Shown here in pieces: positions 10,367 to 21,365 of a stretch of DNA of 53,380 nucleotides. This DNA comes from Phycisphaerales bacterium (lineage in GTDB: Bacteria; Planctomycetota; Phycisphaerae; Phycisphaerales; UBA1924): NCBI GenBank assembly GCA_020831775.1, contig JAFIFZ010000037.1, positions 1 through 53,380 on the forward strand. Direction: 5' to 3'. Every line of letters begins with the position of its first letter. Positions within the stretch are counted from its first letter, which is position 1. The translations under genes were made by a program, and so were the position numbers. Under the pieces are notes generated by a model. That model searched no databases. It saw nothing but the letters and a program-made list of their open reading frames with translations, and was not told the origin of the DNA.

Positions 10367-11431
10367 ATGGCCTCGTTCTACACCCTTGATTTCGAGAAGC
10401 CCGCCACCGAAGTCGAACGCCGCCTCGCCGAGGCGCGCCGGAGGCTCGCCGACGCAGAGGCGAACCGCCTCCGTCCGCCGCCCTCCGCCCCGAGCCCGTT
10501 CCCGGCGCTCGATGAGGCGGAGGCCCCGGTCGACACCCCGGACCCCGGCCTCTTACGGACCGAGATCGACGAACTCGCCGCAGAACGCAGACGCCTCCTC
10601 GAGGCCGCCTACACCAACCTCAGCCCGTGGAACACCGTCCGCGTCGCCCGCCACCCCGAACGCCCCCACTCCCGCGAGTACATCGACGCGTTCTGCCGCG
10701 ACTTCTGCGAGCTCCACGGCGACCGGCGCTACGGCGACGACCCCGCCATCATCACCGGCTTCGGTCGCATCGGCCCCCACAAGTGCCTCATCGTCGGCCA
10801 CCAGAAGGGCCGCAACACCCAGGAAAAACTCGCCTGCCACTTCGGCTGCGCCCACCCCGAGGGCTACCGCAAGGCCCTGGCCAAGATGAAGCTCGCCGAG
10901 AAGTACGGCGTCCCGGTCGTCACCCTTGTCGACACACCGGGCGCTTACCCCGGCCTCGGCGCCGAAGAGCGCGGCCAGGCCGAAGCGATCGCCGTCAACC
11001 TCCGCGAGATGTCGCGCCTCCGCGTGCCGATCGTGAGCATCGTCATCGGCGAGGGGGGCTCGGGCGGGGCGCTGGGCATCGCCGTCGCCGACCGCGTCGC
11101 GATGCTCCAGCACGCCTGGTACTCGGTCATCAGCCCCGAGGGGTGCGCCGCGATCCTCTGGAAGCAGGCCAACGAGTCGACCAACCGGGCCGCCGCCGAC
11201 GCCCTCCGCCTCACCGCCGCCGACAACCTCCGCCTCGGGATCATCGACGACATCATCGACGAGCCGCTCGGCGGCGCCCACCGCGACAAGACCGGTGCCG
11301 CCCAGCGCGTCGAGCGGTGGATCGTCGACCAGCTCCAAGACCTCAAGACAATGGATGCGGACACGATCGTCCGCAAGAGGTACGACCGCTTCCGCAAGAT
11401 CGGCGCGTTCAGGGAGGCCGAAGGCGTCTGA
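10367..11431 (+). CDS. accA: Acetyl-CoA carboxylase carboxyltransferase subunit alpha
   Basis: AccA forms, with AccD, the carboxyltransferase that moves carboxyl from biotin on AccB to acetyl-CoA, giving malonyl-CoA for fatty-acid synthesis. The 354-residue product starts with the family-type LDFEKP and helical region, has a Pro-rich linker around residues 44-62 that makes it slightly longer than the usual 315-325, and then a crotonase-like domain. Conserved stretches seen are HGDRRYGDD, GHQKGR, DTPGAYPG, and GEGGSGGALGIA, whose glycines form the oxyanion hole, followed by WYSVISPEGCAAILW. accD, accB and accC are not in the window. Confidence 0.95.
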   Translation: MASFYTLDFEKPATEVERRLAEARRRLADAEANRLRPPPSAPSPFPALDEAEAPVDTPDPGLLRTEIDELAAERRRLLEAAYTNLSPWNTVRVARHPERPHSREYIDAFCRDFCELHGDRRYGDDPAIITGFGRIGPHKCLIVGHQKGRNTQEKLACHFGCAHPEGYRKALAKMKLAEKYGVPVVTLVDTPGAYPGLGAEERGQAEAIAVNLREMSRLRVPIVSIVIGEGGSGGALGIAVADRVAMLQHAWYSVISPEGCAAILWKQANESTNRAAADALRLTAADNLRLGIIDDIIDEPLGGAHRDKTGAAQRVERWIVDQLQDLKTMDADTIVRKRYDRFRKIGAFREAEGV

Positions 11432-11489
11432 AGCCAGCGCCGTATACGCGGAAATCCCTCCGGTAGGAACCGGACAGATGGTATCCATC

Positions 11490-11518
11490 TTGACATTGCG
11501 TCCCCGTATCTGTACGCT
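11490..11518 (+). promoter_or_regulatory. Predicted sigma-70 promoter for the DksA-like/lspA operon
   Basis: A perfect -35 TTGACA (11490-11495) is separated by 17 nt from the weaker -10 TACGCT (11513-11518). The inferred start is near 11525, leaving a leader of about 70 nt before the GTG at 11595. Confidence 0.6.
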
Positions 11519-11594
11519 CCCGCCGAAATCTCGGGCGGGGTGAAGGGTTGTGTTTGGACTCTCCCGGCCGACCCGCCATAGGTGAGTCCGCACC

Positions 11595-12554
11595 GTGTCC
11601 AAAAAGAAATCGTCCACCAGCAAGAAGACTCCCCCGAAAAAGGGTGCGTCTGCTGCGTCCGCCAAGCGTGTGACGAAGAAAAAGACCGTCTCCAAGAAGT
11701 CTTCGGTCCGGAAGGTCGGCAAGAAGTCTGCCTCCAAGGGCGCCGGCCCGGCAAAGAAGAAGGCCGGCACGAAGACCTCCGCCAAAAAGGCGACGACCAA
11801 GAAAGCCGCTTCGAAGAAGGCCGCCTCCAAGAAGACTTCAACTAAGAAGTCCTCGGCCAAGAAGCCGGCCCAGAAGAAGCCCGTCAAGGCCGCCACCAAG
11901 AAGACATCGAAGAAGGTCGAGACCAAGGCGGCCCCTCCCGCGGCCGCCAAGCAGGGTCAGGCCGCCCAGAAGGACGACCCCAAGAACCGCAAGGGCATCA
12001 CCGTCGTCCAGCAGAAGCGGTCTCGCCCCTCCCGGCCCAAGCAGACGACCAACTACGGCGCCGCCTCCGCCGGGCGCCTCAGCGGCCTGCCCCGCAAGCC
12101 CATGATCCCCTCGGGCCCCGACGCCCCGGCCCAGGTCAAACAGGGCGCCAGCGAGGCCGATGACGGGCCCCGCAAGAGCCCGTTCAACAAACGACAGCTC
12201 GCCAAGTACCGCAAGGTGCTCCTGGAAAAGCGGGCGATCCTCGTCGGCGAGCTCAACGACCTCGAAGAGGGCGCCCTGCGGGGCTCGTCGGGCTCGCTCA
12301 GCCACCTGCCCCAGCACATGGCCGAGCAGGGCTCGGAGATGGCCGACCAGTCCCTCTCGCTCAACCTCGCGGCCACCGAGCGATCCCTGATCAAGGAGAT
12401 CGACGAGGCGCTGCAGCGGATCGAGAACAAGACCTTCGGCATCTGCGAGCTGACGGGCCGGCCCATCCGCCCAGAGCGTCTGGAAGAGCTCCCATGGACC
12501 CGCTATTCGATCGACGCCGCACGAGAGCTTGAGCGCAGGTCGATGCCCCGGTGA
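11595..12554 (+). CDS. DksA/TraR-like protein with N-terminal histone-H1-like Lys/Ala-rich tail
   Basis: The 319-residue product has two parts. Residues 1 to about 115 are dominated by Lys, Ala, Ser and Thr in KK(A/T/S) repeats like the tail of histone H1 or of bacterial Hc1-type proteins, and a disordered linker continues to about 190. The C-terminal part (about 195-319) has the DksA coiled coil (LSLNLAATERSLIKEIDEALQRIE) and the start of the zinc-finger region (FGICELTGRPI). Only Cys284 of the four zinc ligands remains; the second pair reads YSIDAA. DksA proteins enter the RNA polymerase secondary channel. Here DNA binding plus polymerase binding is inferred. The start is GTG with AGGTGAG upstream. 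The stop overlaps the lspA start (GTGA), so the two are translationally coupled. Confidence 0.88.
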   Translation: MSKKKSSTSKKTPPKKGASAASAKRVTKKKTVSKKSSVRKVGKKSASKGAGPAKKKAGTKTSAKKATTKKAASKKAASKKTSTKKSSAKKPAQKKPVKAATKKTSKKVETKAAPPAAAKQGQAAQKDDPKNRKGITVVQQKRSRPSRPKQTTNYGAASAGRLSGLPRKPMIPSGPDAPAQVKQGASEADDGPRKSPFNKRQLAKYRKVLLEKRAILVGELNDLEEGALRGSSGSLSHLPQHMAEQGSEMADQSLSLNLAATERSLIKEIDEALQRIENKTFGICELTGRPIRPERLEELPWTRYSIDAARELERRSMPR

Positions 12555-13309
12555 CACCGGACCGGAATCCAAAGCCCGGGCCGTCGGATCGGCCGTCCGC
12601 CTTGACGGTCGAGACCCCCGCGTTGCGCAGCAAACGGGCCTGGGCCGTCTTCCTGAGCATCGCCGTCTTCGCCCTGATCGCCGACCTCTGGAGCAAGGAC
12701 CTCGCCTTCCGGTTCGTCCACGACCGCCCGGTCGTCGTCGAGCGCGAGGCCGTGCTCGAACTCGGGCCGCGCCGACTCAACGAGATCATCGACGCCCAGA
12801 CCGGCTACCGCGAGCCGGTCGTCGTCGTCCCCCACATCCTCGAATTGACGCTGGTGCTCAACCCCGGCGCGGTCTTCGGCATCGGCGCGGGGCAACGCTG
12901 GATCTTCGTCTTCTTCACGCTGATCGCGATGGGCTTTGTGACTTGGGCCTTTGGCACATGGACCAACGCGAAGCAGTGGCCCGCCCACGCCTGCGCCGGC
13001 CTGCTCGTCGGGGGCGGGCTGGGCAACCTCTACGACCGGCTCGTCTACGCCTGCGTCCGCGACTTCCTCCACCCCCTGCCGACCGCGACGATCCCGGGCA
13101 CGGGCGGACGCCCCCTCTGGCCCTATGTCTCCAATGTCGCCGACGCGTTTCTCATCGTCGGCATCGTCGGGCTCGTTCTCTTCGCCTGGTTCGGCGGTCC
13201 TCAGCCCGCCCGCGAGCGAGTGAACATCAACGGCGACGCCCCGAACGAGGATGACTCCAGCGCAAACGACCCACCGGACGACAAAGGCCCCGGGAACGAT
13301 CAGGCGTAG
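12551..13309 (+). CDS. lspA: Lipoprotein signal peptidase (signal peptidase II)
   Basis: LspA is the inner-membrane aspartyl protease that removes signal peptides from diacylglyceryl prolipoproteins. Hallmarks are seen in order: DLWSKDLA in the first helix, NPGAVFGI, GGGLGNLYDRL with VRDF (first catalytic Asp) and NVADAFLIVG (second catalytic Asp). Four membrane helices are evident. At 252 residues it exceeds the usual 160-190 because of an inserted extracytoplasmic segment (about 55-95), an insert between the VRDF and NVAD motifs, and an acidic, disordered C-terminal tail of about 35 residues. The GTG start overlaps the TGA of the DksA-like gene. Its 3' end overlaps the convergent gene at 13300 by 10 bp. 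Confidence 0.93.
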   Translation: MTPDRNPKPGPSDRPSALTVETPALRSKRAWAVFLSIAVFALIADLWSKDLAFRFVHDRPVVVEREAVLELGPRRLNEIIDAQTGYREPVVVVPHILELTLVLNPGAVFGIGAGQRWIFVFFTLIAMGFVTWAFGTWTNAKQWPAHACAGLLVGGGLGNLYDRLVYACVRDFLHPLPTATIPGTGGRPLWPYVSNVADAFLIVGIVGLVLFAWFGGPQPARERVNINGDAPNEDDSSANDPPDDKGPGNDQA

Positions 13310-14247
13310 CTCGTCGCCTTAGCCCGGATCTCGTCGATCACGCCCCGGACCTCCTCGGCCATCCGGGAGTTGGGGAACGACTCGATGATCCGCTCGCCCA
13401 GCTCGGCCGCGTGGCGCCAGCGCCGGTCGTGCACCGCCAGTTTGAACTGCGCCCCGAGGTTGTCGCGGGCCTTGCCGATGACGCCTCGGGCGACCTCTTC
13501 GTAGCGTTTGCCCTCCGCCTCGGTGAGGTAGGCGTCGAGCTCCTTGAGCAGGTTCATCGCGTCGTCGACGCGTTCTTCCTTGGCGGCCATGAGGAACCGC
13601 CGCTCCAGCTCGGACTTGTACTCGTGGCGGGCGCGGTGCACGCGGTGGCGGAGACCGTCGACCTTCGGCGAATCGGGGTAGAGCCGGATGATGCGTGCCG
13701 CCTCGACCTCTGCCGCGTCCCACCGGCGGGCCTGGAGGAGCTTCTCGACGCCCTCGATCGCCATCGGGATGCGTCGGTTCATCGACTCGTACCGGGCCGC
13801 CTCGATCTTCTCTCTGAACGCCTCGGCGTCGGAGCGGTAGCCGAAGCGTTCGGCGAGCTCCTTGATGAGCACCATCGCGGCGTCGTAGTCCTCGGCGAGG
13901 ATGTCCTCCTGGATCGCCTTGCGGAGCAGCTCACGCTCGTTGCGCCTGTTGAGCACGCGTCGGGCGTCCTCGCTGAGGGCCTGCTGGCGCACGAGCGAGT
14001 CCATCGCCTCTGTCAGTTTGTCGAGGTCGCGGGAGCTCCCTCCCCCCGAGAGGGTCAGGAGCAGGACCGGGGCGCACGCTCCGACGATCGCAAGTGCGAG
14101 CAGACCGATCGCGAAGATCGTCAGGTCGCGTTCGAGCGCCCCGTAGCTGAGGACCGCGACGGCGACGACCGCCGCGGTGGCGAACATCCATACCGCAGCC
14201 TTCGGGCTGATCAGTTCCGAACCCCCGCCGTTGCCGGTGCTGGCCAT
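13300..14247 (-). CDS. Membrane-anchored tetratricopeptide-like protein
   Basis: The product has 315 residues. Two hydrophobic helices near the N-terminus (about 15-35 and 42-66) anchor it in the membrane. The rest is charged and alpha-helical, with repeats of the type LLQARRWDAAEVEAARII and RRWRHAAELGERIIESFPNS that look like degenerate tetratricopeptide repeats. It is probably a scaffold for protein interactions at the membrane; no enzyme motif is seen. ATG 14247 has GGAGAAA upstream; an in-frame ATG at 14301 is less likely. The cupin gene lies 78 nt upstream on the same strand and may be co-transcribed. Confidence 0.75.
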   Translation of the reverse strand: MASTGNGGGSELISPKAAVWMFATAAVVAVAVLSYGALERDLTIFAIGLLALAIVGACAPVLLLTLSGGGSSRDLDKLTEAMDSLVRQQALSEDARRVLNRRNERELLRKAIQEDILAEDYDAAMVLIKELAERFGYRSDAEAFREKIEAARYESMNRRIPMAIEGVEKLLQARRWDAAEVEAARIIRLYPDSPKVDGLRHRVHRARHEYKSELERRFLMAAKEERVDDAMNLLKELDAYLTEAEGKRYEEVARGVIGKARDNLGAQFKLAVHDRRWRHAAELGERIIESFPNSRMAEEVRGVIDEIRAKATSYA

Positions 14248-20615: not shown

Positions 20616-21365
20616 ATGAAGCGCACCATCATCAGCAGCGGACTGGCCTTGGCGTTGTGCTCGGGCGTCGCCTCGGCGAACCTCGTCGGGCAGAGCGCCC
20701 AGTACGCCGGCTCGTACACGATCGACCTGAACGGTCAGGTCGTCGGCTCGCCCCGCTCGGGCGATGTGATCGCCTACAGCAACCTCAGCGGCGCAGCCAA
20801 CGCCGGCTTTGCCAACCCGGATATCACGGCGACCTACGGCGACGAGCTGACGCTCGAGGCGACCGGACGCCTCCAGGAAGTCTCGTTCGCGGTGTTCAAC
20901 GGCGGCGCGAGCGCCGGCCCGATGACCGGCGCCGTGATCGATCTGGACTTCTTCCGCGCCTCGGACGGCTCGTTCCTCGGCGGCTTTTCGGTGAACCTCA
21001 GCGGCGCCCTGACGGCCAACCCGCTGGACGCGGGGTTCTTCACGACCTTCACCGTCGGCGGCCTGGACACCGAAGAGATCGACATCGACACCAACGAGAT
21101 CATCATGCTCCAGTCCTACAGCGATGTCGCCGGCTCGACGGCGTTGGGCGTGGTCAGCCGCACCCCCCCGTCGGTCGGCTCGGCGATCCCGCAGCTGTAC
21201 ATCGACGCGATGGGCGTCGGCACCGGCCCGGGCTTCTTCAACATCGTCGACCAGTTCCAGGAGCCGATCACCTTCAACATGATCGCGGAAGTGGTCGTGC
21301 CCTCCCCCGCTGGCGCTTCGCTTCTGGCGATGGCCGGCCTGGTTGGCCTGCGTCGCCGCCGCTGA
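20616..21365 (+). CDS. Exported protein with PEP-CTERM-like C-terminal sorting signal
   Basis: The 249-residue product has a signal peptide (cleavage near residue 22 after ASA), a beta-rich body with no recognised enzyme motif, and a C-terminal tripartite sorting signal: VPSPAGA, a hydrophobic helix and RRRR. Such tails are processed by exosortases and anchor or release the protein at the cell surface (family knowledge). It is Gly/Ala/Asp-rich and poor in Cys. The start is ATG 20616, with AGGAGAA 8 nt upstream; the open frame upstream is not coding. A strong terminator follows. This is a different anchoring route from the GC-dockerin tails in the same window. No exosortase gene is present here. 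Confidence 0.85.
   Translation: MKRTIISSGLALALCSGVASANLVGQSAQYAGSYTIDLNGQVVGSPRSGDVIAYSNLSGAANAGFANPDITATYGDELTLEATGRLQEVSFAVFNGGASAGPMTGAVIDLDFFRASDGSFLGGFSVNLSGALTANPLDAGFFTTFTVGGLDTEEIDIDTNEIIMLQSYSDVAGSTALGVVSRTPPSVGSAIPQLYIDAMGVGTGPGFFNIVDQFQEPITFNMIAEVVVPSPAGASLLAMAGLVGLRRRR

Follow-up and report, generated by a model that had tools for sequence, protein, structure and literature searches.

An H1-like tail, a linker, and a DksA-type domain are encoded by one gene upstream of lspA

The window analyzed here is the whole 53,380-nucleotide stretch (contig JAFIFZ010000037.1, assembly GCA_020831775.1) from a bacterium of the order Phycisphaerales (Planctomycetota, class Phycisphaerae). Between accA and lspA it carries a gene for a protein in which a Lys-rich N-terminal tail is followed by a linker and a DksA-fold domain (Table 1). 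A preliminary description of this DNA had placed about 115 Lys/Ala/Ser/Thr-rich residues before a DksA-type coiled coil, which the composition, the Pfam match, and the predicted fold bear out. Its layout of tail and domain was thus right, but it missed the linker of about 75 residues, with conserved motifs, that lies between them. The GC3 of the tailed DksA frame is 0.88, and that of the other 19 listed frames ranges from 0.76 to 0.94. At 77 of the 79 loci from the order a same-strand lspA was identified (L132 and L151 gave none). In a scan of positions 11300–13500 no site resembled a promoter, and the terminator-like sites, 4 in number, were weak and lay on the minus strand.

Table 1. Positions of the tailed DksA gene, its parts, and its neighbors in the window.
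Feature	Position	Strand	Remarks
accA, upstream neighbor of the DksA-type gene	10367..11431	+	same strand
Shine-Dalgarno-like AGGTGAG	11580..11586	+	8 nt upstream of the GTG start; seen in the sequence
DksA-type gene with H1-like tail	11595..12554	+	319 aa, GTG start, TGA stop, frame open throughout
Basic tail, Lys/Ala/Ser/Thr-rich, aa 1–118	11595..11948	+	composition, conserved lysines
Linker, aa 119–195	11949..12179	+	predicted disordered, yet sequence conserved in near relatives
Linker motif RKGITVVQQKRSRPSRPK, aa 132–149	11988..12041	+	family pattern KG[IL][TSK][IVLA][VAPST]
Linker motif RKPMIPSGP, aa 167–175	12093..12119	+	family pattern P[LM]I[PAS]S
DksA-fold domain, aa 196–319: coiled coil, degenerate zinc-finger region, C-terminal helix	12180..12551	+	profile matches, predicted fold
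Coiled-coil tip H241-x-x-E244-x-G246 in place of DxxDxA	12315..12332	+	alignment to E. coli DksA; residue numbers counted by hand
Cys284, sole zinc-ligand position left	12444..12446	+	kept in 79/79 loci of the order
lspA (signal peptidase II)	12551..13309	+	start overlaps the stop of the DksA-type gene by 4 nt

The basic tail is kept throughout the order and is patchy outside it

Residues 1–115 contain 41 Lys, 20 Ala, 18 Ser, and 13 Thr and have a net charge of +42. When we ranked the 1267 six-frame ORFs of at least 100 residues in a total of 359 kb from this genome, the window among them, by lysine count per 60 residues, the tailed DksA came out on top; four further ORFs reach 14 to 21 lysines per 60, one of which, in L193, is perhaps not a true gene. 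To score tails in other genomes, we required at least 40 residues with at least 10% Lys and a net charge of at least +10 in some 60-residue stretch. DksA was present in 79 of the 81 genomes of the order that were searched, giving a set of 79 loci (the window and 78 others). The preliminary description had named absence of the tail from orthologues as the observation that would speak against it, and had suggested a survey of tail length and cysteine loss. We looked for tail-less orthologues and found the opposite: 76 of the 77 order frames uncut by a contig end passed the test, the exception being L132 with 8% Lys. Because these orthologues carry it, a local frameshift or artefact as the source of the tail is ruled out. 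One or two zinc cysteines are left at all 79 loci. Tails have a median length of 188 residues (range 79 to 428, possibly overlong since each was counted from the earliest start codon following a stop), with a median Lys+Arg fraction of 0.30 and a median Asp+Glu fraction of 0.03.

A closer comparison was possible with L032 and L033, two relatives whose domains are 99% identical. Aligned tail lysines were kept at 40 of 41 and 39 of 39 positions, respectively, and 25 of 117 and 33 of 112 tail codons carried amino acid changes. Lysine retention differed from the other tail changes with Fisher p values of 1e-4 and 3e-8, which are inflated as the aligner favors placing Lys on Lys. The dN/dS ratios (divided from computed values) were 0.27 and 0.23 for the tail and 0.15 and 0.20 for the linker, and about 0.02 for the domain, the most conserved part of the protein.

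Beyond the order, tails occur unevenly, at 23 of 53 other loci of the class and at 12 of 53 loci from other classes of the phylum. These counts are not frequencies, and neither set is random: the class loci were the best Pfam scorers plus places picked by family, and the phylum loci were the best scorers, one per family, plus a second set partly picked for long frames. Eight of 189 loci were dropped as they gave no domain hit (L002, L009, L012, L014, L023, L027, L031, and L188), and L001 and L082 as the window itself. We then built a tree of 224 domains over 135 columns, omitting the named loci before L043, whose species are those of the order rows or close to them, along with frames that run off a contig, five doubly fetched loci, and L076, L077, L132, and L179. 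Explaining the tail label on this tree takes at least 20 changes, compared with a mean of 75 for shuffled labels. This indicates that the tail is clustered by kinship, yet appears to have been frequently gained or lost. With 89 of its 218 inner branches unresolved, long branches joined together, and the order not recovered as one clade (4 changes), the tree cannot date the tail. The wide range of tail lengths and the repeated label changes are what would be expected if the tail were low-complexity drift with a function limited to solubility. We consider this very improbable, since the lysines are kept while their neighbors change (with the alignment bias noted above), the label changes are far fewer than the shuffled mean, and the linker is conserved.

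The domain belongs to a wide DksA lineage with few zinc cysteines and a changed tip

The domain scored 33.7 bits with the Pfam zf-dskA_traR profile (PF01258, cut-off 24.9), which places it in the DksA/TraR family, and it was the sole PF01258 match found in the genome; the Pfam DksA_N match was below the cut-off. Among NCBIfam models the best score was that of yteA (TIGR02890, 67.5 bits, cut-off 134.4), followed by the canonical DksA equivalog (TIGR02420, 48.7 bits, cut-off 115.5), both too low for membership. For the tail, the Pfam HC2 profile (PF07382, Chlamydia histone H1-like) gave 15.9 bits against a cut-off of 40, below Hc2 membership, and a Burkholderia histone H1-like NCBIfam model covered it weakly (24.2 bits versus 80). 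Structure prediction against DksA, the check proposed earlier, returned a DksA coiled coil for the domain (pLDDT 85), close to Pseudomonas aeruginosa DksA2 (4ijj, the best fold match, TM-score 0.82), E. coli DksA (1tjl, 0.83), and also Chlamydia Dks. From profiles and predicted fold together, the assignment of residues 196–319, which have a net charge of 0, to DksA is sound.

In the alignment to E. coli DksA, the four zinc cysteine positions read C, T, S, and A, and the tip residues D71, D74, and A76 correspond to H, E, and G. The preliminary description had noticed the reduction to a single zinc cysteine, Cys284, and, by eye, the loss of the acidic DxxDxA tip, and both are confirmed. Across the 79 loci of the order the first cysteine is always kept, the second and fourth are always lost, and the third is kept at 21, so that 58 loci have one cysteine and 21 have two. 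The first tip position is H and the last G at every locus, with D (68 loci) or E (11 loci) between them, and Arg125 is likewise kept in 79 of 79. Because the pattern H-x-x-[DE]-x-G holds at all 79 loci, the tip is constrained even though it is unlike that of E. coli.

These features are not peculiar to the tailed form. The best PDB sequence match was the DksA of Chlamydia trachomatis (6ptg, E 1.8e-13), a member of the PVC superphylum, which also has one zinc cysteine left (C, S, T, S) and an HxxDxG tip compared with HxxExG in the window, but is without a Lys-rich tail: its solved chain has 132 residues, and the match begins at residue 10. The P. aeruginosa DksA2 structure likewise keeps two of the four zinc cysteines in its aligned sequence and differs in being a 136-residue chain without the tail. 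This protein is reportedly zinc-independent, and it works in a RelA/SpoT organism. Furthermore, among 34 named loci from other phyla (L048 onward), 24 have no basic tail, read CTSA (23 loci) or CTCA (1 locus) at the zinc positions, and carry at the first tip position a Lys, as in Flavobacteria and their kin. We could thus rule out zinc loss as a trait peculiar to the tailed form. Since the changes are shared with tail-less relatives, they have no bearing on the fusion: judged by sequence, cysteine loss and the changed tip mark a wide DksA lineage and are not bound to the histone-like tail. DksA copies with four cysteines and DxxDxA occur in two families of the class, at six loci of f7 and three of f11, and 5 of the 6 f7 copies (L004, L010, L013, L022, and L180) pass the basic-tail test, the other, L179, having 8% Lys. 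By this test, a second DksA type has also been joined to a basic tail.

The E. coli ppGpp contacts are lost, and RelA/SpoT matches are scarce in the class

DksA is usually taught as the partner of ppGpp. No match to the RelA_SpoT profile was found in the genome of the window, which is 95% complete, and matches were obtained in 23 of 298 genomes of the class, of which two belong to the order. The RelA_SpoT domains of the class are scattered, some of them in long frames (842–1569 residues). A gap in RSH proteins in the PVC superphylum is reported in excerpts of an earlier survey of 19 genomes, one of them from a planctomycete (PMC3153485). According to excerpts of a study on the E. coli protein (PMC7676912), DksA touches ppGpp with R91, K98, R129, K139, and L95, the substitutions K98A or R129A abolish ppGpp binding at site 2 and not polymerase binding, and N680 of the β′ subunit contacts ppGpp at the DksA interface.

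The window protein has T, E, L, and A at the positions of R91, K98, R129, and K139, respectively, and keeps only L95. In the order, R91, K98, and R129 are retained at none of the 79 loci and K139 at one; L95 is kept at 55, and the R129 position is a Lys, a conservative change, at 54. Chlamydia DksA (6ptg) has K, Q, I, and Q at the same four positions. All five contacts are kept at six loci from Nitrospirae and deltaproteobacterial records (L063, L072, and L078–L081). Contact loss as a marker of ppGpp absence is nevertheless unsupported, because all six DksA loci analyzed from the 23 RSH-bearing genomes of the class lack R91, K98, and R129 (K139 survives in L029), and in Flavobacteria K98 and R129 are lost and R91 and K139 remain; the loss therefore does not track the absence of ppGpp.

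The RpoC of the genome keeps β′ N680 and D684, and K681 is replaced by Q. Among the residues that we take to form site 1 in RpoC, R417, K615, and Y626 have been substituted, R362 has become K, and D622 is kept. The genome also has a GreA-type match, a protein that could serve the secondary channel. Together with the altered zinc ligands (three of four), the altered pair of acidic tip residues, and the lost ppGpp contacts, this match would suit a nucleoid protein in which the DksA fold is a mere scaffold that no longer enters the channel. Such a protein seems improbable to us: the domain is the part under the strongest constraint, the HxxD/ExG tip is invariant in the order, and Chlamydia DksA, which the PDB names an RNA polymerase binding protein, has the same tip type and a single zinc cysteine.

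The linker carries motifs that differ between families

Residues 116–195 have a net charge of +10, and a folded linker is unsupported by the prediction (pLDDT about 40–60). In the family of the window protein, 11 of 23 sequences contain KG[IL][TSK][IVLA][VAPST] and 17 contain P[LM]I[PAS]S (e.g., KGITVV and KPLIPSGP), with 0.15 and 0.03 sequences expected from composition-shuffled sequences, and a third, A-rich motif type occurs in 4 of 23. Other families have other motifs: [NS]GR[RK][VI]R is present in 19 of 20 f4 sequences, mostly inside GYVxINGRRVRxIS, with the KG motif in 8 of 20 (0.13 expected), [LP][KR][KR][VIAL][KR][ST][GD][LMI] in 18 of 21 f3 sequences, and GMLDPxPxHPND in 5 of 6 f5 sequences. 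The 8 loci of family f2 and the single f28 locus had none of the linker motifs tried. Shuffled expectations ranged overall from 0 to 0.15 sequences; the counts are descriptive because the patterns were picked after viewing the sequences. When the linker was searched against the 81 genomes of the order, 5 matched, each time adjoining a DksA match, and sharing with other proteins was not found. From their sequence conservation, the family-specific motifs are probably docking motifs for a partner, RNA polymerase being the first candidate.

Lys-rich stretches occur on other nucleic-acid proteins of the genome

A sample of 306 kb of the genome outside the window held further Lys-rich frames: an RNase E/G with a Lys-rich N-terminal stretch (L199:5628-8948), an endonuclease III-like HhH-GPD glycosylase with a similar stretch (L196:10964-11764), and a 253-residue frame with no Pfam match at E 0.01 (L209:16603-17361). 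Elsewhere in the genome, one of two HU family matches has a Lys-rich N-terminal tail (L213, G000 contig C64, 10455-10724), and there are two H1/Hc2-like frames (L289, G000 contig C56, about 12316-12963, and L291, contig C28, about 20773-21060), one of which scores over the Pfam HC2 cut-off. The tail is therefore neither unique nor special to the DksA protein, which is one of several Lys-tailed nucleic-acid proteins in this genome, and because HU, the glycosylase, and RNase E/G bear Lys-rich stretches, chromatin and transcription need not be coupled wherever a tail is present. The tail may instead have a broader, less specific function.

Folded proteins with disordered basic tails are known from other bacteria. 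In Myxococcus, CarD combines a folded part with a disordered HMGA-like DNA-binding tail. AlgP and PhaF are described, in excerpts of PMC9239181, as a folded part with a disordered Lys-rich (KPAA) DNA-binding tail, and the H1-like AlgP of Pseudomonas is said there to bind DNA and to associate with polyphosphate granules. The tailed DksA resembles all three in its plan and differs in that their folded domains are unrelated to DksA and the AlgP tail is C-terminal. The case of AlgP, the presence of a polyphosphate kinase match in the genome, and the Lys-rich stretches on HU, RNase E/G, the glycosylase, and the 253-residue protein would all suit a tail that is a general polyanion tether (to RNA, ribosomes, or polyphosphate) on a DksA domain that is an ordinary polymerase factor, with no special coupling of nucleoid and transcription. 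We regard this as unlikely, although it deserves weight, given that the tail is kept on the DksA protein in nearly every member of the order and that a similar fusion, DdbA of Streptomyces, is described as DNA-binding in the available excerpts.

A nucleoid-anchored, ppGpp-independent DksA is the best reading

Because no RelA/SpoT synthetase was found and four of the ppGpp-contact residues are missing, we favor, with a probability of roughly one in two, a nucleoid-anchored, ppGpp-independent secondary-channel factor of the DksA type. In this model the disordered Lys-rich tail would anchor the protein on DNA (or on other polyanions) through charge, while the coiled coil would enter the secondary channel of RNA polymerase from the β′ rim and alter open-complex stability or pausing. 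The conserved linker motifs would dock on a partner, in the first place polymerase, and protein level and DNA occupancy, rather than ppGpp, would determine the effect. We thus infer binding to DNA and to polymerase, an effect on transcription, and a role for the linker from the anatomy of the protein. The predicted DksA fold, the conserved tip, the kept tail lysines, N680 and D684 in the cognate RpoC, and the precedent of DdbA all point this way. The replacement of K681 by Q, the frequent Lys at the R129 position, a contact loss that does not track ppGpp, the tails on other proteins, and the patchiness outside the order appear to weigh against it.

The combination of an H1-like with a DksA-like part is already known. 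In Streptomyces coelicolor, DdbA (SCO2075) has an H1-like N-terminal and a DksA-like C-terminal part and is described as a DNA-binding protein proposed to link DNA conformation and transcription (excerpts of PMC9043899, PMC11942623, and PMC11229371). By these published descriptions, both proteins join a Lys-rich or H1-like N-terminal part to a DksA-like domain; one review, as far as excerpted, ties DdbA to ppGpp, whereas the planctomycete genome has no RelA/SpoT match. The original account of the DdbA fusion and its proposed role is reportedly that of Aldridge et al. in 2013. Simultaneous binding of DNA and polymerase, put forward in the preliminary description, is thus the putative reading most consistent with the anatomy, but to judge from the excerpted sources it was published for DdbA in 2013, and the presence of a tail is insufficient to infer a coupling. 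The planctomycete form follows the idea of DdbA in another phylum, is near-universal in the order as sampled, stands in genomes that mostly have no RelA/SpoT match, and has conserved linker motifs. Among the open-licence papers searched, none had a title dealing with a histone-tailed DksA from planctomycetes, and PMC3784963 makes no mention of DdbA, SCO2075, or DksA.

That DksA is kept in an order mostly without a RelA/SpoT match, with its contacts missing, raises the question of what DksA does without ppGpp. The conserved histone-like tail makes coupling to DNA a directly testable answer, which, if true, would mean that the proposal made for Streptomyces DdbA also applies in a distant second phylum. 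More speculatively, and in our estimate doubtful, the order may run a ppGpp-free DksA control in which the protein is fixed to the chromosome by its H1-like tail, reads the state of the nucleoid or a modification of the tail, and docks through linker motifs that change from family to family. As a separate observation in Streptomyces, a plasmid of S. goshikiensis (L248:1069-2246) carries a small TraR/DksA gene immediately after a Ku gene.
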